Assembly: GCA_025449835.1 (NCBI GenBank)
Contig: JANWIO010000151.1
Location: forward strand, 1 to 34,247
Length of the DNA stretch: 34,247 nt
Reading direction: 5' to 3'
Source: Vampirovibrionales bacterium
Lineage (GTDB): Bacteria; Cyanobacteriota; Vampirovibrionia; Vampirovibrionales; JAGQHJ01
Part shown: piece after piece, positions 19,702 to 31,651 of the stretch
Numbering within the stretch: position 1 is the stretch's first letter
Layout: every line of letters begins with the position of its first letter
Notes under the pieces: model-generated
The model's input: the letters and a program-made list of their open reading frames with translations, nothing else
What the model was told of the DNA's origin: nothing
Databases searched by the model: none
Position numbers and translations under genes: made by a program

Positions 19702-19823
19702 GCGTTGCAAAATTTAAAAGCCTGCTGTTTTTTGTTAAGAAATGTATTTTTTCGGCGTTTTGATCGCACATTTTTGCCTTGATGGGTTTTTAACCTGTGT
19801 CAGAGGAGCGAAATGAGATAAGT

Positions 19824-21248
19824 ATGACTTCAATTTATCCAACGCAAATGCCTTATAACCCTGCACCGGTCAGTAACCAAACGTATCGGCCCCGGCAAGG
19901 TGTTTTTTATGCGCTGGATATGAACTTATCTGCTCCACCATCACCAGAACGAAGCGCAAAATTGAGACTACGAGACTGGGCTTTTCATCCGATTGAAACC
20001 TATTACTTAATGCAGCAGCTTAAAATATCCCCCCAGAAAAATGAATCGTTTGGGATGCGATTGGCGATGTACCGGGTATTAAAGCAAACCCTTTCTACAA
20101 AAGGCCGGAAAAATCTCTACCAACAGTTGATTCAAGGCCGATTAACCGATGTGAAGGCGGATGATAATCGTTCTACGTTAAGCCATTTGTATGCCATTGT
20201 GACAACACCTCGGGCAGAAGGGTTAGAGGCCAAACTGGTTTTGGAAGACATCTTACGCTTAATGTCAGCCCCTCAGACCATTACCCAACGGTTTGGAAAA
20301 CTTCAACCACAGTTCTTACAAGGTTTGATGAATTATTATAACAGCGGTTCTGGTCCGAAAATATCTCAGCCCATTGATATCAATAGTTTGCGTGTATCCT
20401 CCAGCGCCACGTGTGTTGCATCGAGCCTGATGTATTACATGGTGTCTAAAAATCCCAGTGAATTTGCCCGTCATATTGCAGAATTAACGAGCCCTCGCTT
20501 GGCTTTTCAAGAAAAAGCATGGCTCAATGAAATTTCACCGGAAGATCCGTCTCAAGCCGCCCAAAAATTAGCGGAATATGGCATTCCTGCGGTAGCTGTC
20601 CCTGGAACCAATGGAGCACAGTATTGGGTTAAAGTGGATTTACCCTACAGTGGTTTATTTCGGGCAATGAATCACGAAGGTTCTCACGAGATTGGAACTC
20701 GTGGTGTTGTAGAAGCTGCCTATCAATCGGCGTTAACTCATCTGGTTGTTCGGTCTTACGATCCGGGTTTGGATATGCGTGTTAACCCAGATGGCACATT
20801 GGATCCCTCAAAAGGACTTGAAGAAGATCGGAAAACCTTAATGGAAAGCATTATAAAAGATAACGGTGGTGTGATGTCGGTCACCTATCAATTCACTGCT
20901 GCCGGATCGGACGATGAACCTTATTTAATGGGCTACTACCGCAATTTTGATCAGACGACCCGTGATGTAATGCAGGCGATTGATAATGGCGAGCAGGTAA
21001 TTATTGGTATTACCGATACTGACCGCCTTGGCACACCGGGGCGGATTAATATGGGCCATGAGTTAACGGTTACAGGATATGAACAGGATAAAAAAACAGG
21101 CGAAATTATGTTTACCATTGCAGATAGCGATGATGATGATCCCAATTTGGTTAAACGCCCAGCAAGTGAGATCGTTCCGCAGATTCATCATGCGGGTTTC
21201 CCTGTTAAACCGGCACAAAGAATCTGGAATGAAATTAACAGTCGCTGA
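19824..21248 (+). CDS. Unrecognised protein with a papain-like Cys/His/Asp arrangement; frame cut by TGA
   Basis: This is 474 residues from ATG 19824 (MTSIYPTQMPYNPAP), with AGGAG at 19804-19808. The frame opens earlier at GTG 19797 but without a ribosome binding site. A Pro/Tyr/Gln-rich N-terminus (1-30) precedes a mostly helical part and then a region with three spaced motifs: C197 in SSSATCVASSLMYYM at the start of a helix, H412 in GHELTVTGYE, and D434 in FTIADSDDDD. This order and local context (helix after Cys; GHxxxVxGY strand; short strand ending in Asp) resemble C39/papain-fold cysteine peptidases, although the Cys-His spacing is long. There is no signal peptide. The TGA at 21246-21248 is followed by the same open frame for another 128 codons, so this may be only part of the gene. 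Confidence 0.75.
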   Translation: MTSIYPTQMPYNPAPVSNQTYRPRQGVFYALDMNLSAPPSPERSAKLRLRDWAFHPIETYYLMQQLKISPQKNESFGMRLAMYRVLKQTLSTKGRKNLYQQLIQGRLTDVKADDNRSTLSHLYAIVTTPRAEGLEAKLVLEDILRLMSAPQTITQRFGKLQPQFLQGLMNYYNSGSGPKISQPIDINSLRVSSSATCVASSLMYYMVSKNPSEFARHIAELTSPRLAFQEKAWLNEISPEDPSQAAQKLAEYGIPAVAVPGTNGAQYWVKVDLPYSGLFRAMNHEGSHEIGTRGVVEAAYQSALTHLVVRSYDPGLDMRVNPDGTLDPSKGLEEDRKTLMESIIKDNGGVMSVTYQFTAAGSDDEPYLMGYYRNFDQTTRDVMQAIDNGEQVIIGITDTDRLGTPGRINMGHELTVTGYEQDKKTGEIMFTIADSDDDDPNLVKRPASEIVPQIHHAGFPVKPAQRIWNEINSR

Positions 21249-23345: not shown

Positions 23346-24581
23346 TTAGTCTTCAAGGTAACGTTTTCCAATCAGTTCGGTGGGTAAAAAAGTTTGTTCT
23401 GTCATAGGATGATCATGGCTGTATAGGTATCCGATACCGTGGCCGTATTTTTGGGCATCCTGATAATGGGAGTCTTTTAGGTGGGATGGGACTTCAAAGC
23501 TGTTTCCTTCTTTTTGAATATCGTGAAGTACGGCGTCGATAGCCATGATGGTTTGATTCGATTTTTTGGCCTTGGCAACATAAATAGTTGCTTGAGCTAG
23601 AGGGATTCTTGCCTCTGGAAACCCCAATTTTTCAACAACCTGGGATGCCGCATTGGCTAAAACCAGGGCCATTGGGTCCGCATTACCCACATCTTCACTG
23701 GCCGTTACCAAAAGACGTCTTGCAATAAATCGTGGATCTTCTCCAGCAGCAATCATTTTTCCCAGCCAATACAAAGCTGCATCGGCATCAGAACCCCGCA
23801 TGCTTTTTTGATAAGCAGAAGCATGATCATAATGCTCATCTCCGTTTCTATCATAATTCAACCGATTTTGTTGGGCGAGCTGTTCTAAGAGTTCGATGGT
23901 TAATATCCGTTTTCCATTCTCTAAAGGGGCGCATAAATATGCGGTTTCCAGTAAATTTAAGGCACTTCTCCCATCACCATTCGCATAATCAACAATAAAT
24001 GAGATTGCTTTATCAGATGTTTCAAGGGTGTTCAGTTTTTCGACGCCGCGATTTACCAAGGTGGTAATCTCTTCCCGATTTAAATAATTGAGTCGTATCA
24101 CCAATACCCGAGAAAGTAAGGCCGAAATAACCTGAAAACTTGGATTTTCAGTGGTTGATCCTATCAGGATAAGTGTTCCGTTTTCAACATAAGGGAGTAA
24201 GGCATCTTGCTGTGTTTTGCTGTAACGGTGGATTTCATCAATGAAGAGAACGGTTTGTTTTTGAGCAAGATTTAATGTTTCTCTGGCACCTTCAACCACT
24301 TTCCGAAGATCGGCTATTCCAGAGGAAACAGCGCTTAGTTCAACAAATTGGGCGCCGGAGTTCTCGGCAATCAAACGAGCCAAGGTGGTTTTCCCCACAC
24401 CAGGAGGTCCCCAAAAGAGAAGGGACGTTAGACTTTTAGAATTGATCAGGTTGCGCAGTGGGGCATTCTCTCCTAGCACGCTTTTTTGTCCCACAAAGTC
24501 CTGAATCTTTGTTGGACGAAGCTGTTCTGCAAGAGGCGTCCGTTTGTATTGGTTTCCCAGGAGATCTAAAAGATTTGCCAT
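23346..24581 (-). CDS. rarA: Replication-associated recombination protein A (AAA+ ATPase, MgsA/RarA)
   Basis: This AAA+ protein, related to clamp-loader and RuvB-type ATPases, acts at stalled replication forks and DNA ends. It has 411 residues. Walker A is GPPGVGKTT (58-66), Walker B FIDEIHRYSKTQQDALLP (about 113-130), with sensor 1 in LIGSTTENPSF and an arginine finger region SALLSRV. The C-terminal half carries the family tetramerisation region (SMRGSDADAALYWLGKMI, EDPRFIARRLLV). The start ATG 24581 has no strong ribosome binding site. It diverges from the 1351-residue acidic protein across a 74-bp gap that must hold both promoters. Confidence 0.97.
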   Translation of the reverse strand: MANLLDLLGNQYKRTPLAEQLRPTKIQDFVGQKSVLGENAPLRNLINSKSLTSLLFWGPPGVGKTTLARLIAENSGAQFVELSAVSSGIADLRKVVEGARETLNLAQKQTVLFIDEIHRYSKTQQDALLPYVENGTLILIGSTTENPSFQVISALLSRVLVIRLNYLNREEITTLVNRGVEKLNTLETSDKAISFIVDYANGDGRSALNLLETAYLCAPLENGKRILTIELLEQLAQQNRLNYDRNGDEHYDHASAYQKSMRGSDADAALYWLGKMIAAGEDPRFIARRLLVTASEDVGNADPMALVLANAASQVVEKLGFPEARIPLAQATIYVAKAKKSNQTIMAIDAVLHDIQKEGNSFEVPSHLKDSHYQDAQKYGHGIGYLYSHDHPMTEQTFLPTELIGKRYLED

Positions 24582-24655: not shown

Positions 24656-27600
24656 ATGTCCGCTTTACATGTAACGATTGAACAGCTCACCGCAGAAAGG
24701 CTGGAAGGGCGTTGTACGCAATGGAGTGACTTTCCAAAGCCGGGCTATTTTATTGATTTTTTGACGAATCAAGGCACCCATTTTTATACTCAGATAGAAT
24801 CCGTTAGCCCTGTTCCGGAAGCCCCCAATGTACTACACCTCTCTTTGCTGCCAATTTCTGGAAGCCCTGATTCTCGCGTAAAAGAAGCCAGCCAGATTTC
24901 CCAGATGGACTTTTACAAAAATCAACAGGGCTATCAAGACATGGATGTTCCAATTGCCCTTCATGATATCCAGTTTGACCTCAATAAGTCGGGTAAAGTG
25001 GTGTATGTAAAGCCCAATGAGTTGGGACTACATCAACGCATCGTTAAAAGCTTCAAAGATGCTGGATTTCCAGTCGTGATTATTGATCCTATTGGCATGT
25101 CATGGGGAGAGGAGGAAGCCAAACAGTATCTTCTTGGAAAAGATACGCAATTGTCTGTTCAGGAAGTGGGGATAAATTATTTTATTGAGTGGGTTATTGA
25201 AAGTCTTCCTAAGGCCATTCAACCTAAAGCTTCAGAGTTTTTATTGAGCCTGGTTCCGCCAACACCTGATTTTATTCCTATTCAATACTTTGTAAGCCAT
25301 CCGTTATTAAAGGATCATCCGCTTTCAGCCGCTATTTTACATCAGCTGTATGTGTTTCATAAAAACCAGTTGTTTGCATCGTTGCCCGAAAAAGCCTTAA
25401 CCTTTGAAAAAATTGAAGGTTGTTTGCATTTAAACCTATCCGCTTTACCTCCTGCGCTTTTACCTTTGGCTTACGAGGGGATTCTTCGGATGGCTTTCCG
25501 GCAGGTATTACCTGTGAACACACAGATTGTTTTGATTGCCCCAGAAGTTCATCCTGATTTTGTCTCAGAATTTATCCAGCGGATTCATCACCGAATTTTC
25601 TTAGTCAGCAATATTTCAAAGACCTGGAAAGAATTTGTTGTGGACAGTTGGGGAGAAGCCCGTTTATTTGGTGAGGAAGGGATCGAAGTTCAAGGGGAAA
25701 TCACAGATGATTTGAAGCTGTTTCTTCCCTATCGGAATATTGAAAACTTGGCAGCCACGCTTTCCAATCCAACAGAACCGACTGCGATTGAAACAGCAGA
25801 AGACGCGGTTCAGGCGGCGTCAGAAAATATCGATGGCCTTGAGGCTGCTTCCCCAGATTTTGAAGAAGGCTCACAACGCGAGATGACGACAGATGTTTTA
25901 CCAGCCGTAGAGCCAAATGAACCTGAGTTAGTCGACTTGGAGTCTATCATTGATGAGGATTTGTTAACGTCTACGGAAGAGCAAAATGCAGCTCTTGAGA
26001 CTGTTTCTATAGAGGCTGAAGCCGGTGTGGCTGATGATTTAGAATCCCTCCATCAGTTATTGGGGAGTGCACCAGAAAATCAAGAAGAGGCCTTGGAAGG
26101 CGCTGATTCTCCTGAGGCAAATGCAGAACCTTCTGTCCTTGACCTGGATTACTTTCTCAATAAAGAAACAGATGGGCTGGAATTTGAAAGCGAGGGAGGG
26201 GATGATGCAAGTGACACGTCTCTTGTATCGGAAGCCTCATCTGAGGATCCTAACTGGAAGGGTATGGTAATTGATTGGAAAGAGTCACAAGAGCCCGTTA
26301 ACGAAACAACTCATCTTGTTGCAACATCCGATGATTTCTTAATGGATTCATCCCCATGGTTGCCTGAGGGGGAAGAGAGTCTTCTGGTCTCAGGCGAAAA
26401 CTTGGAACAAAACGATACGAATCTGGATGGGGTAACAGCGTTTGATACCGATGATTCTTCTAAAACCTTTGTTGGTGGTAAAAGTTTACTGGATGAAGAA
26501 ATTGACTTTTTGCCGGAGAGTTCCGACAAGCTTTGGGATTTTGATTTTTCATCATTATCAGGCTCTAATGATGGTGATACAGGGTTTTATAGGCTTTTAC
26601 AAAAAGAGATTCCCAATATTGCAGTAGGTATTGCTCCCATTGAAATGCTGGAGGATGCTGGAGGTCTTGGACTTGATTGGGATATGTCAACATTGGAGAT
26701 GGAAGAAGGGCTGCTTGCAAATATGGCGCCTGATCTTTTGGAGACGGTTTCTGAGAAAAACCTTGAAACAGACGAAGATAAGCTAGAACTAGAGGCCGAA
26801 GTCGAGGTGGGGACTACAACTGTTTTTGAAGAGGTTTATGTCTCCGGGGAGGAAATGGAGCAAGACAACATTGATTATTTGAAAGATTTATTGGAGACAT
26901 CTGAAAAAGAATCAAAAGCAGTGCAAGAGAATGATACTATTGGTGGACTCTTTGATGAACATTGGGTTTATGAGTTGGAGGAAGGCGGTGAAGAGATTGC
27001 GGCCATGGATAACACCCAAGTACATTCCTCTCAAGGAATGGCTATCAATTTCCATGAATTTGTAGACTCAGCTCAAAGTGCCGCAGGTAGTGATTGGGAG
27101 TTAAGTGTGGTTCAAGAAGCTCAGCCTCAATCTGAACAGATTGCAGAAGAAACTTTGGCAGAAGTAGCAGCTGTAAATGATGAAGGTGACTTTGTTTTTC
27201 ATTTGGATGACGATGAAGATACTTTACCCAGTAATAATTTAGAGTTTATTGATCTACCTACTGAAAATGATGACTTACTGAAAGCGTCACAGGATGAAGA
27301 GATGCCAATCTTTACCCTTGATCAGGGGAATATCACAGAGACTTCTCTACCCCCAGGATTGGTTTCGTCAGAGGGAGATGACCAAGCCTCGGATAACACC
27401 CAATCCATGGAAGGGGAACCTCTTTTGCAAACGCCAGACGAAACTGTTTCTACAGATGCTTTAACCCTGGAATCTGACGAAGAACTTCAATTCTTTCTTC
27501 TGGAGGATGAAGCAGAAGAACAACAATCCTCAGATTCCTCCATTGATGAGCTGGAAGCTCGTATGTTAGATCTTTCAAATCAACTGGGTGTAAACGATCC

Positions 27601-28711
27601 AGGCTTTGGAGAAAAAGCTTTGGCTTCACAGGTTGAAGCGTTAAGCAAAATGAATTATGTCGATCCAGCTCTTGAAGCGAGCTTGCAGAACGAGGCCGTT
27701 TCTTCTGAAGAGGATGATGACTTTAATTGGCAAATGGGTTCAAACACGATGAGTGAGGTCGGCGAGTTTCAATTTGATTTGCCTGAAGCACAGTCGATTG
27801 AAGATACTGAAGACGCTGAACTTTCAGAATCGCTTGCAGAGACAACTTTACAGGAAAATATAGACTTTTCGCTTCAATTTGAGTTACCAGAAGAACAATC
27901 ATCGATTGAAGAGCCTATCAGCCTAGATTTCCCAGAATCACTTTCAGAAACTGCTGTTGATGAAAATGTAGCCGTCGTACCTCAGTTAGAATTAGCTGCT
28001 GATATGCCTATTGAGGGGCTTGATGTAACGAAAACCGAAATGTCTTTTGAACCTCTAGAGGAAGTAGAATCCTTACCTTCTCCAGAATTGGAGGCATCGG
28101 AGCCAGTTGCTGAATCACCTGATTTGACCTTACCAGAACAAGAAGAAGAGGCCAATCCCTTAGAAACATTGAGTTTAAGTGAGGCATCTGAACCCTTAGC
28201 TGATTTGGAAGGGCTTGATTTTCATTTTGAAACATCTCTAGAAGAAACAGAACCCATTTCACTGGAATTTGGTACACTAGAATCACAACCCGATCAGCCA
28301 CAGGAAATTGCAGCCGTGAATGCATCTGATGCACAAATTTTCAGTCAGCATGATGATGCTTTAGATCTTTTATTCCCAAGCACGCCAGAGATGTTTGACT
28401 TAGAAGGGAAGCAGGAGCCTGATGAAGTCATTCCCGATTTCAATCTTGATCCAGACCCTCAGGCAGATGCACAAGTGGGAAGCACTCAGCAGTTGGAGTC
28501 TGCATTACCCATCTATAAAAATCTATCACGAGAGGATGGGGTTATTGCATTTAGGCCCGGAGAACAGGTATTCCATAAACGGTACGGGCAAGGCACTATT
28601 AAAAAAGTGATTACCATGGACGCAGATCAGGTGATTTTAAATATTAATTTTGAAGGGATCGGGAAGCGTTTATTGGATCCGAATTTGTCGCAACTTGAAA
28701 AAGTCAGCTAG
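24656..28711 (+). CDS. Giant acidic protein: decayed HerA/FtsK-like ATPase head, ~900-residue acidic linker, PcrA/UvrD-type C-terminal domain
   Basis: This protein has 1351 residues and no signal peptide or membrane segment. Residues 1-70 could be a small beta barrel. Residues 100-360 have the layout of a HerA/FtsK-type P-loop ATPase (strand, loop, helix, then PVVIIDPIG; a leucine-rich LSALPPALLPL helix; a second core strand), but the P-loop position reads YVKPNELGLHQ (117-127) with no GKS/T, and the Walker B position reads IVLIAPEVHP (291-300) with no Asp-Glu pair. Residues 370-1290 are low complexity, extremely Asp/Glu/Ser/Leu rich, with a 35-residue repeat at 1038 and 1073. The last 57 residues (FRPGEQVFHKRYGQGTIKKV ... 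LSQLEKVS) closely follow the C-terminal Tudor-like domain of PcrA/UvrD helicases, which is known to bind RNA polymerase. The ribosome binding site is weak. Domain calls are by eye; the role is unknown, perhaps a scaffold at DNA or RNA polymerase. Confidence 0.8.
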   Translation: MSALHVTIEQLTAERLEGRCTQWSDFPKPGYFIDFLTNQGTHFYTQIESVSPVPEAPNVLHLSLLPISGSPDSRVKEASQISQMDFYKNQQGYQDMDVPIALHDIQFDLNKSGKVVYVKPNELGLHQRIVKSFKDAGFPVVIIDPIGMSWGEEEAKQYLLGKDTQLSVQEVGINYFIEWVIESLPKAIQPKASEFLLSLVPPTPDFIPIQYFVSHPLLKDHPLSAAILHQLYVFHKNQLFASLPEKALTFEKIEGCLHLNLSALPPALLPLAYEGILRMAFRQVLPVNTQIVLIAPEVHPDFVSEFIQRIHHRIFLVSNISKTWKEFVVDSWGEARLFGEEGIEVQGEITDDLKLFLPYRNIENLAATLSNPTEPTAIETAEDAVQAASENIDGLEAASPDFEEGSQREMTTDVLPAVEPNEPELVDLESIIDEDLLTSTEEQNAALETVSIEAEAGVADDLESLHQLLGSAPENQEEALEGADSPEANAEPSVLDLDYFLNKETDGLEFESEGGDDASDTSLVSEASSEDPNWKGMVIDWKESQEPVNETTHLVATSDDFLMDSSPWLPEGEESLLVSGENLEQNDTNLDGVTAFDTDDSSKTFVGGKSLLDEEIDFLPESSDKLWDFDFSSLSGSNDGDTGFYRLLQKEIPNIAVGIAPIEMLEDAGGLGLDWDMSTLEMEEGLLANMAPDLLETVSEKNLETDEDKLELEAEVEVGTTTVFEEVYVSGEEMEQDNIDYLKDLLETSEKESKAVQENDTIGGLFDEHWVYELEEGGEEIAAMDNTQVHSSQGMAINFHEFVDSAQSAAGSDWELSVVQEAQPQSEQIAEETLAEVAAVNDEGDFVFHLDDDEDTLPSNNLEFIDLPTENDDLLKASQDEEMPIFTLDQGNITETSLPPGLVSSEGDDQASDNTQSMEGEPLLQTPDETVSTDALTLESDEELQFFLLEDEAEEQQSSDSSIDELEARMLDLSNQLGVNDPGFGEKALASQVEALSKMNYVDPALEASLQNEAVSSEEDDDFNWQMGSNTMSEVGEFQFDLPEAQSIEDTEDAELSESLAETTLQENIDFSLQFELPEEQSSIEEPISLDFPESLSETAVDENVAVVPQLELAADMPIEGLDVTKTEMSFEPLEEVESLPSPELEASEPVAESPDLTLPEQEEEANPLETLSLSEASEPLADLEGLDFHFETSLEETEPISLEFGTLESQPDQPQEIAAVNASDAQIFSQHDDALDLLFPSTPEMFDLEGKQEPDEVIPDFNLDPDPQADAQVGSTQQLESALPIYKNLSREDGVIAFRPGEQVFHKRYGQGTIKKVITMDADQVILNINFEGIGKRLLDPNLSQLEKVS

Positions 28712-28765: not shown

Positions 28766-31651
28766 ATGACGGATGGTTCTTCTGCCACACAGGGCCAGAC
28801 AGTAGATTACAAAGAAACCCTCAATTTACCCAAAACGCCTTTTAAAATGAAGGCGGGTTCGGTTACGCGTGAACCGGAATTGGAAAATTTTTGGGCTGAA
28901 AATCAGGTTTATGAAAAAGTTCAGGCGGCCAAAGTAAAAACCAATCGTTTTTTACTTCATGATGGCCCCCCTTACTTGAGCTCCGATAAAATCCATATTG
29001 GCACCGCTTTGAACAAAATTCTGAAAGACATTGTGACCAAATATAAATCCCAAAAGGGATTTTATTCTCCCTTTGTTCCGGGCTATGACGGCCATGGACT
29101 GCCCATTGAAAATGCGGTGGTCAAGTCGATTAAGGGTGGGCGTTCTGCCATCACAGAAGTGGAACTCCGCAAGCGCTGTCGGGAATTTGCCTTAAAAAAC
29201 TTAAAGGGGCAGGAAACGAATTTTAAGCGCCTAGGTGTTTGGGGCGATTGGGAACATCCTTATGTCACCATTCATGGACCTTTTGAAGCCGTTCAAATCC
29301 GTTTATTTTGGGAAATGTACCAAAAGGGATATGTCTACAAAGGGTTAAAGCCGGTTTATTGGTGTCCGCATTGTGAAACGGCTTTGGCCGATGCCGAAGT
29401 GGAATACCAAGACCATACCTCTCCCAGCGTGTATGTCCGTTTTTCAGCAGGTGACTTTTCTTCCCCTGATTTTCCCACACAGGTTAATCGGGATTGGCCC
29501 GATACTTACTTTGTGATTTGGACCACAACCCCTTGGACCTTACCGGCGAATCTGGCGTTAGCCCTAAGCCCGGAGATGGACTACGTTTTTATTAAAACCC
29601 AACATTGGGGAACCTTGATTGTGGCAGAGGCTCTGCTTCAGGACTTTCTCCAGAAAGCAGGAATCACTTCTTATGATGTGATTTATCAGACCAAGGGATC
29701 GGCGTTGGAAAATTTAAAGCCACAGCATCCTTTTTGTGATCGAATCAGTCCCACGATTTTGGGAGATCACGTCACAGCGGATGCTGGGACAGGGATTGTT
29801 CATACAGCCCCTGGCCATGGGCATGAAGACTACTTGGTGGGTCAAAAATATCATTTAGGCGTTTTATCGCCTTTGAATAACAAAGGTGTTTTTACCGAGG
29901 AGGCGGGAGATCGCTTTGCTGGGCTGTTTTATGAAAAGGGAAACCAGGCTGTTATTGAGGTTCTCAAAGAAAAGAAAGCCTTGATTGCTCAAGAGGATAT
30001 TTCTCACAGCTATCCCCATTGCTGGCGATGCCATAATCCTGTTATTTTCAGGGCAACGGAGCAGTGGTTTATCAGTATTGATGGTTTTCGTGAAAAAGCG
30101 CTGGAAGAGATCCGCAAGGTAACCTGGGTTCCCGCCCGGGGTGAACATCGTATCACCAGCATGGTGGAAAACCGGACTGATTGGTGTATCAGCCGCCAGC
30201 GAGTCTGGGGCGTTCCGATTCCTGTATTTTATTGTAACCAGTGCCAAACTCCTTTAATTAATGCGGATATTATTGATAGCCTGGCAAAGCGATTTGAGCA
30301 GGAAACATCTGATTCTTGGTGGGCTTACGATGCAAAAACCCTGTTAGGGGAAGGTGTTACCTGTTCTCAATGTGGCCATGGTGACTTTACGAAAGAAATG
30401 GACATTATGGATGTTTGGTTTGACAGTGGTGTGACCCATACCGCTGTGGTTGAAGCCAGATCCGAGGAATTAGGACATCTACCCGTTGAGCTTTATCTTG
30501 AAGGGTCTGATCAGCACCGCGGCTGGTTTCAATCGGCCCTCTTAACCAGTGTTGCCGTTCGGGGAGAACGCCCCTATAAGAGTGTTTTAACCCATGGCTT
30601 TGTCTTAGATCCCGATGGGCGAAAAATGAGTAAAAGCTTGGGCAATGTGGTGGACCCTCTGGATGTTATCCAGCAGTATGGGGCTGATGTCTTAAGGCTG
30701 TGGGTGGCCAGCGTGGATTACACCAATGATGTTCGGATTGGCAAGGAAATTGTGAATCAACTGGCAGAAGTTTACCGCAAAGTCCGTAACACCATTAGGT
30801 TTATCCTGGGAAATCTGGCGGGATTTAATGCTACGGATCAGCGGGTGCCTTATGCTCAATTATCCCGGCTAGATCAGTATACACTCTTTCGGCTACAGCA
30901 AGTGGTGGAAACCTTGACACAAGCCTTTGAAATCTATGAATTCCATCGTTATTACCAAGTGTTGCAGAATTTTTGTGTCACCGATTTAAGTGCCTTGTAT
31001 TTTGATGTGACGAAAGATATTTTATACACGGCGCCTCAAAATTCCGTTCAACGGCGGGCTGTGCAAACAGTTTTGTTCGAACTCCTGGCAACATTAACGC
31101 CTTTATTAGTCCCAGTGATGCCGCATTTGGCTGAAGATATCTGGTTAAATATTCCTGATGAACATCGGCCAACCTTTGGTTTACCAGAAGCGCCTTTGAG
31201 TATTCTGATGACGCCTTGGCCCCAGGTGAATTCACAATATTTGAATGAGGCATTAGCTGTTGAGTTTAAGCAGCTCCTTTCAGTGAAAGAAGCGGTCAAT
31301 TTTGCCTTGGAAAAACCTCGTTCCGAAGGGATTTTGGGAAGTTCATTAGAGGCTGATGTGGTGGTTGTGCCCAAAAATGATCAGATGACAAAGCTGTTTG
31401 CGACGATCCCCCCTTCCGAACTGGCTGCTTTGTTTATTACTTCCGGGGTTCAGGTGGCAGATACGCCACCTGCTGAGACCATTGGGAGTACCAATGGTGC
31501 ACTCGCAGAGGATGTTGCTGTTTATGCCATTAAGGCGATGGGTAAAAAGTGTATTCGGTGCTGGAAATTTTTGCCTTCGGTTGGTGTGACGCCAGAACAT
31601 CCTGAAATCTGTAGCCCATGCATTGAAGCCGTTCAAGCCGCCTTGGGATAA
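28766..31651 (+). CDS. ileS: Isoleucyl-tRNA synthetase with HIGT in place of HIGH
   Basis: This class I synthetase charges tRNA-Ile. Its 961 residues follow the bacterial layout with a C-terminal zinc finger (CIRCW ... CSPC, about 930-955). The active-site segment is LLHDGPPYLSSDKIHIGTAL: the signature HIGH reads HIGT (residues 77-80), and the preceding loop differs from the common YANGDIH, with one extra residue. KMSKS is canonical at 620-624 within GRKMSKSLGNVVDP. The editing (CP1) domain is present, including WTTTPWTLPANLALA and GTGIVHTAPGHGHEDY. The start ATG 28766 follows AGGA at 11 nt, inside a hairpin arm. It follows the acidic-protein gene by 54 bp on the same strand and may share its transcript. 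Confidence 0.97.
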   Translation: MTDGSSATQGQTVDYKETLNLPKTPFKMKAGSVTREPELENFWAENQVYEKVQAAKVKTNRFLLHDGPPYLSSDKIHIGTALNKILKDIVTKYKSQKGFYSPFVPGYDGHGLPIENAVVKSIKGGRSAITEVELRKRCREFALKNLKGQETNFKRLGVWGDWEHPYVTIHGPFEAVQIRLFWEMYQKGYVYKGLKPVYWCPHCETALADAEVEYQDHTSPSVYVRFSAGDFSSPDFPTQVNRDWPDTYFVIWTTTPWTLPANLALALSPEMDYVFIKTQHWGTLIVAEALLQDFLQKAGITSYDVIYQTKGSALENLKPQHPFCDRISPTILGDHVTADAGTGIVHTAPGHGHEDYLVGQKYHLGVLSPLNNKGVFTEEAGDRFAGLFYEKGNQAVIEVLKEKKALIAQEDISHSYPHCWRCHNPVIFRATEQWFISIDGFREKALEEIRKVTWVPARGEHRITSMVENRTDWCISRQRVWGVPIPVFYCNQCQTPLINADIIDSLAKRFEQETSDSWWAYDAKTLLGEGVTCSQCGHGDFTKEMDIMDVWFDSGVTHTAVVEARSEELGHLPVELYLEGSDQHRGWFQSALLTSVAVRGERPYKSVLTHGFVLDPDGRKMSKSLGNVVDPLDVIQQYGADVLRLWVASVDYTNDVRIGKEIVNQLAEVYRKVRNTIRFILGNLAGFNATDQRVPYAQLSRLDQYTLFRLQQVVETLTQAFEIYEFHRYYQVLQNFCVTDLSALYFDVTKDILYTAPQNSVQRRAVQTVLFELLATLTPLLVPVMPHLAEDIWLNIPDEHRPTFGLPEAPLSILMTPWPQVNSQYLNEALAVEFKQLLSVKEAVNFALEKPRSEGILGSSLEADVVVVPKNDQMTKLFATIPPSELAALFITSGVQVADTPPAETIGSTNGALAEDVAVYAIKAMGKKCIRCWKFLPSVGVTPEHPEICSPCIEAVQAALG

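Follow-up and report, generated by a model that had tools for sequence, protein, structure and literature searches.

A pseudo-HerA protein with a long acidic tether and a UvrD/PcrA-type Tudor tail in non-photosynthetic Cyanobacteria

Within a stretch of 34,247 nucleotides from a Vampirovibrionales bacterium (the window), one gene (24656..28711, + strand) encodes a protein of 1351 aa in which a pseudo-HerA head is followed by an acidic linker and a Tudor tail of the UvrD/PcrA type, an arrangement that is called from the open reading frame and from relatives with the same layout. The protein is a member of an undescribed family that is specific to a non-photosynthetic cyanobacterial clade. Searches of the literature and of domain and family libraries gave no description of a dead HerA combined with a UvrD-type tail, which agrees with the original prediction that the architecture had no known description. 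The architecture is secure and the function is what we infer from it: the protein probably serves as a scaffold for docking or competes with UvrD.

The gene and its surroundings

The predicted 1351-residue protein is present as an open reading frame that starts with ATG, and across 24656-28711 no rival frame stays open for more than 110 codons. Homologues in other genera of the order (645-2157 aa) have the three-part layout and adjoin rarA, and mostly also ileS, thus the reading frame is not an artefact. The divergence from rarA that had been reported also holds, rarA lying on the - strand (23346..24581) and the gene on the + strand, whilst ileS is found downstream (28766..31651, +); rarA is beside the gene, and ileS at that place, only within the window's order. 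The motifs that had been quoted were all found, YVKPNELGLHQ at aa 117-127, IVLIAPEVHP at aa 291-300 and the tail motif at aa 1299-1350. Promoter and terminator scans gave scores under the shuffle mean, and the protein matches no defence-system family. Pfam finds no domain of the SF1 helicase core in the 1351 aa, and the matches in NCBIfam are mainly in the tail, as PcrA/UvrD. Elsewhere in the window (19797-21248) is a gene for a 483-aa protein with a weak match to Peptidase_C39_2 (E 0.0082), which is under the cut-off.

A head of HerA descent

The head (aa 1-362, 24656..25741, +) is made up, judging by profiles, of a HAS-barrel-like beta region and a RecA-like HerA/DUF87 core without Walker motifs, and its profiles and structural models indicate that it descends from HerA-type DNA translocases. 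The window head has no direct match in Pfam itself, and is tied to its relatives by profiles, by the shared tail and by the layout. The order-level head profile A1 matches relatives in the class with E down to 4e-15, and hhalign aligns A1 with the relatives' profile A5 over 336 columns (97% probability, E 6.6e-11). Pfam DUF87, the central domain of HerA, is recognised in 11 of the 39 heads from relatives, with E reaching 2.3e-9, and one head exceeds the gathering score (23.5 vs 23.2 bits). When profiles were compared with the PDB, A1 gave no match and A4 gave weak matches only, the best of which was HerA (E 0.012), whilst for A5 the only sequence match below 0.1 was S. solfataricus HerA 4D2I (E 2e-7), the P-loop of which, ATGSGKS, aligns with residues of the family that do not form a P-loop.

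The HerA fold is matched by the AF2 model of the head of one relative, L069 (pLDDT 87.6, pTM 0.86), for which Foldseek gives HerA as the best matches (E 3.3e-18, TM 0.74); its 50 best matches are HerA or HerA complexes judging by their titles, a few of which are unspecific. The model of the window head is poor (pLDDT 64) and too poor to decide alone, its best Foldseek matches being the DndH C-domain, VirB4 and HerA, which are weak and of the same superfamily; as a result, the fold of the window head rests mainly on homology to the better-modelled relatives. An inactive HerA/FtsK-like head had been proposed, to be checked by structure prediction. Of this the HerA likeness and the missing catalytic residues stand, HerA replaces FtsK as the closest relative, and the structural check came out confident and HerA-like for L069 and weak for the window head.

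With HerA, a hexameric DNA translocase (PF01935 DUF87; 4D2I, 8XAU), the head has in common its fold, sequence homology, a hhhhDxxG strand and a hhDLS strand, whereas the family is without Walker A, has a degraded Walker B and has added a long tether and a Tudor tail. The HerA-type hhhhDxxG strand is VVIIDPIG in the window (aa 140-147, 25073..25096, +), the D144 of which never varies in alignments A1 and A6, and the HerA counterpart of the strand is IFDYHGEY. The same genome has an intact DUF87 protein (L189, G000:C8:29951-30418; Walker A ASSGMGKS, E 2.1e-12), with which neither A1 nor A5 gave a match in hhalign.

The sequences show that the ATP-binding motif is lost in all 108 members examined. 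The degenerate P-loop position (YVKPNELGLHQ, 25004..25036, +) is placed by the family alignment only, and none of the 108 heads has a Walker A there, so the loss is an old one that the whole family shares. The sole match to a Walker A regular expression among these heads, in L094 near residue 32, is inside the N-terminal beta region. At the degenerate Walker B position (IVLIAPEVHP, 25526..25555, +), the acidic pair is absent in the window (IAPEVHP) and degraded in most relatives, with single D/E residues surviving in some.

A PcrA/UvrD-type Tudor tail

The tail (aa 1299-1350, 28550..28705, +) is a PcrA/UvrD-type Tudor domain which keeps the chemistry of the RNAP-binding surface, with residues H1307, Y1310, K1337/R1338 and L1339/L1340. 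In isolation it matches Pfam PF21196 (PcrA_UvrD_tudor) with E 3.9e-6 and 27.1 bits (26.9 bits in a second scan) against a cut-off of 23.9, the full-length protein scoring 22.2 bits, just below that cut-off; the solved structures closest to the tail are those of UvrD Tudor domains (E ~1e-8), and the PcrA/UvrD-type tail that had been read from the letters is thereby borne out. The probable register of PcrA H681, W684, K712 and L714 on the tail follows the numbering of the pulldown study cited next. In PcrA these four residues are needed for RNAP binding in pulldown (PMC5397179), and at their positions in the family tail H is kept, W is replaced by Y, K is K or R, and L is kept.

With PcrA/UvrD (PF21196; 5DMA, 6YI2, 7EGS, 7EGT) the protein shares the tail family, the RNAP-binding residues and a disordered linker ahead of the domain, but there the tail sits on an SF1 helicase and here on a HerA-type head. 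A UvrD-like Tudor tail on a non-helicase protein has a precedent in DinX of M. tuberculosis, a Y-family DNA polymerase with disorder around its tail (PMC6511836), which differs from this family in being a polymerase without a HerA part. The RNAP interaction domains of Mfd and CarD (PF02559) are also Tudor-like and are matched weakly by the tail (E 0.023, below cut-off), yet they form another sequence group with another docking site on RNAP beta.

The acidic tether

Between the two ends is an acidic, variable tether with a local duplication (about aa 363-1283, 25742..28504, +). The Asp/Glu-rich middle had been described correctly, as acidic residues abound in it and basic ones are scarce, with D+E of 21-30% and K+R of 0-5% in each 100-residue block across residues 401-1300; the window linker has 27% D+E and a net charge of about -226. 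Among 28 members measured, the linker is 200-1712 aa long with 13-37% D+E, and it is net negative in all 28, whilst acidic-aromatic motifs are enriched in the linkers of some relatives and not in others. Conservation of the ends and variation of the middle argue that the middle is a tether, the presence of which is conserved and the length and sequence of which are not. The survey of homologues that had been suggested thus found conservation at both ends, but not of linker length. A 28-base direct repeat in the linker (27768-27795 vs 27873-27900, 82% alike, spacing 105 bases) hints at growth by local repeats. Shortly ahead of the Tudor domain is the short motif LPIY(KN) (aa 1284-1289, 28505..28522, +), and at that place 104 of 108 members match a loose pattern of the same type.

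Distribution and gene context

In the class (non-photosynthetic Cyanobacteria, "Melainabacteria"), some 203 of the 289 genomes sampled have the family, the count being the union of two lists from two head profiles. No match in other classes of the phylum was listed in a phylum-wide search, the listed matches all being within the window's class. A scan of genome contigs with the window head alone as query gave no match, the head profile built from the order led to members in further families across the class, and the alignment of these class relatives gave 222 confirmed matches in named genomes, with 80 retained. The titles of relatives are mostly Gastranaerophilales, Melainabacteria, Cyanobacteria or "bacterium", with one Caenarcanum and one Acinetobacter, the latter taken as a mislabelled MAG. 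Complete relatives keep the same three-part layout.

The neighbours of the gene change between lineages, with rarA, maf and ileS in the window's order and, by lineage elsewhere, comM, nadD-yqeK, cobO with FliS and a possible FliT, or FlhB; these changing neighbours do not settle function, nor do they as a whole point to repair. FlhB is on the same strand and begins 4-7 bases downstream of the gene in L053, L054, L055, L057, L058, L059, L063, L065 and L068, and the FlhB beside L053 matches Pfam Bac_export_2 with E 4.5e-112. FliS is just downstream in 17 loci (L062, L066, L079 and 14 more), followed by a possible FliT of 122 aa, and just upstream in 15 loci is a small protein of unknown kind (84 aa). 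Beyond the order, proximity to rarA was rejected as a guide to function, because L061, which is of the order, is the only one with rarA among the 77 loci whose upstream sequence is long enough.

Candidate docking partners

The helicase interaction motif is [VIL]-D-x-x-T-G-E-[VIL]-[VILT], and in Bacillus the PcrA tail is competed for by UvrB and RNAP (PMC8318588). In solved complexes the UvrD tail is bound to E. coli RNAP beta (7EGS) and to UvrB (7EGT). A perfect copy of the motif, LDATTGEIL, is present in UvrB of the window's genome, whilst the RpoB there is of the cyanobacterial type, without the SI1 insert that carries the motif, and the strict motif is absent from the 832 of about 1114 RpoB residues examined. 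RNAP is therefore doubtful as the specific partner, and UvrB appears, on the motifs, at least as likely a partner as RNA polymerase. Docking on RNA polymerase, as originally proposed, thus keeps its basis in the surface residues of the tail but loses its specific partner to doubt. Near residue 110 in the N-terminal part of RpoB (L151) is VNRDTGEIKEQE, which is close to the motif. A DNA-pattern search of the genome for the motif gave further sites in helicase-like, MinC-like and FlhA-like proteins, the FlhA-like one having LDPGTGEL, with these names assigned by reading the sequences.

Possible roles of the protein

The chances are about even that the family is a clade-specific, ATP-independent adaptor, with a Tudor domain that docks on UvrB or RNAP beta and a head that holds another partner or DNA. 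In such an adaptor the Tudor domain would dock on a beta-hairpin with the helicase interaction motif, most probably that of UvrB here and possibly that of RNA polymerase beta, and the head, either single or as a putative HerA-like ring that does not pump, would hold another partner or DNA nearby, so that the protein would anchor factors at complexes of repair or transcription. By sharing the docking sites of UvrD it may also regulate the access of UvrD. It is distinctly unlikely that the heads form a HerA-like ring which never hydrolyses ATP, a hub from which several very long tethers would each lead to a UvrD-type docking domain, and which would organise repair and transcription complexes in a multivalent, non-enzymatic way found in this class only.

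The protein might instead be an antagonist of UvrD, competing for the motif on UvrB or RNA polymerase and so limiting UvrD, with the head only setting stability or oligomerisation. Just two PF21196 domains occur in the genome, one in UvrD and one in the 1351-aa protein, which have the LLDP tail signature in common. Across the class, genomes of families with the protein mostly give two matches to a tail profile and other genomes mostly a single match, taken as UvrD, with exceptions partly in large or contaminated genomes. These counts fit an antagonist, as does the competition of UvrB and RNAP for the PcrA tail in Bacillus (PMC8318588), however the HerA-derived head and long tether in every full-length member seen are left unexplained, and such a role is unlikely. 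A transcription-bound scaffold, its tail docked on RNA polymerase beta, is favoured by the tail family, one member of which is the UvrD domain in the solved complex with E. coli RNAP beta (7EGS), by the conserved RNAP-binding residues and by VNRDTGEIKEQE in the beta region, which is near the motif; set against this, RpoB resembles that of cyanobacteria in missing SI1 and the strict motif is not in the 832 residues examined, so that this too is an unlikely role.

That the family is a flagellar or export-linked factor acting with flagellar proteins is suggested by the FlhB in nine loci and the FliS in 17, by the abundance of relatives in Gastranaerophilales, and by the motif match in the FlhA-like protein. 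For the common ancestor of two orders, Gastranaerophilales and Vampirovibrionales, flagella have been inferred (PMC4451040). Yet the neighbours in other lineages are unrelated and the literature has flagella lost in part of Gastranaerophilales, which makes a flagellar role very unlikely. It had also been proposed that the acidic middle imitates DNA and would titrate DNA-binding proteins; the acidity and net charge of the window protein are in favour, but the linker varies widely in length and acidity and its acidic-aromatic motifs are enriched in some relatives only, thus a tether fits better and mimicry is extremely unlikely.

Significance

Both ends of the protein are known modules, and it is the joining of a dead HerA to the UvrD docking domain that was not found described, in an architecture that spans much of a bacterial class, including the Gastranaerophilales of the gut. 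An RpoB without the SI1 motif provides a clear test of whether UvrD-type tails act there mainly via UvrB. If the adaptor role is true, a HerA-type motor would be reusable as a static scaffold, and a dedicated non-helicase protein would use the docking sites of UvrD in genomes that keep UvrD.
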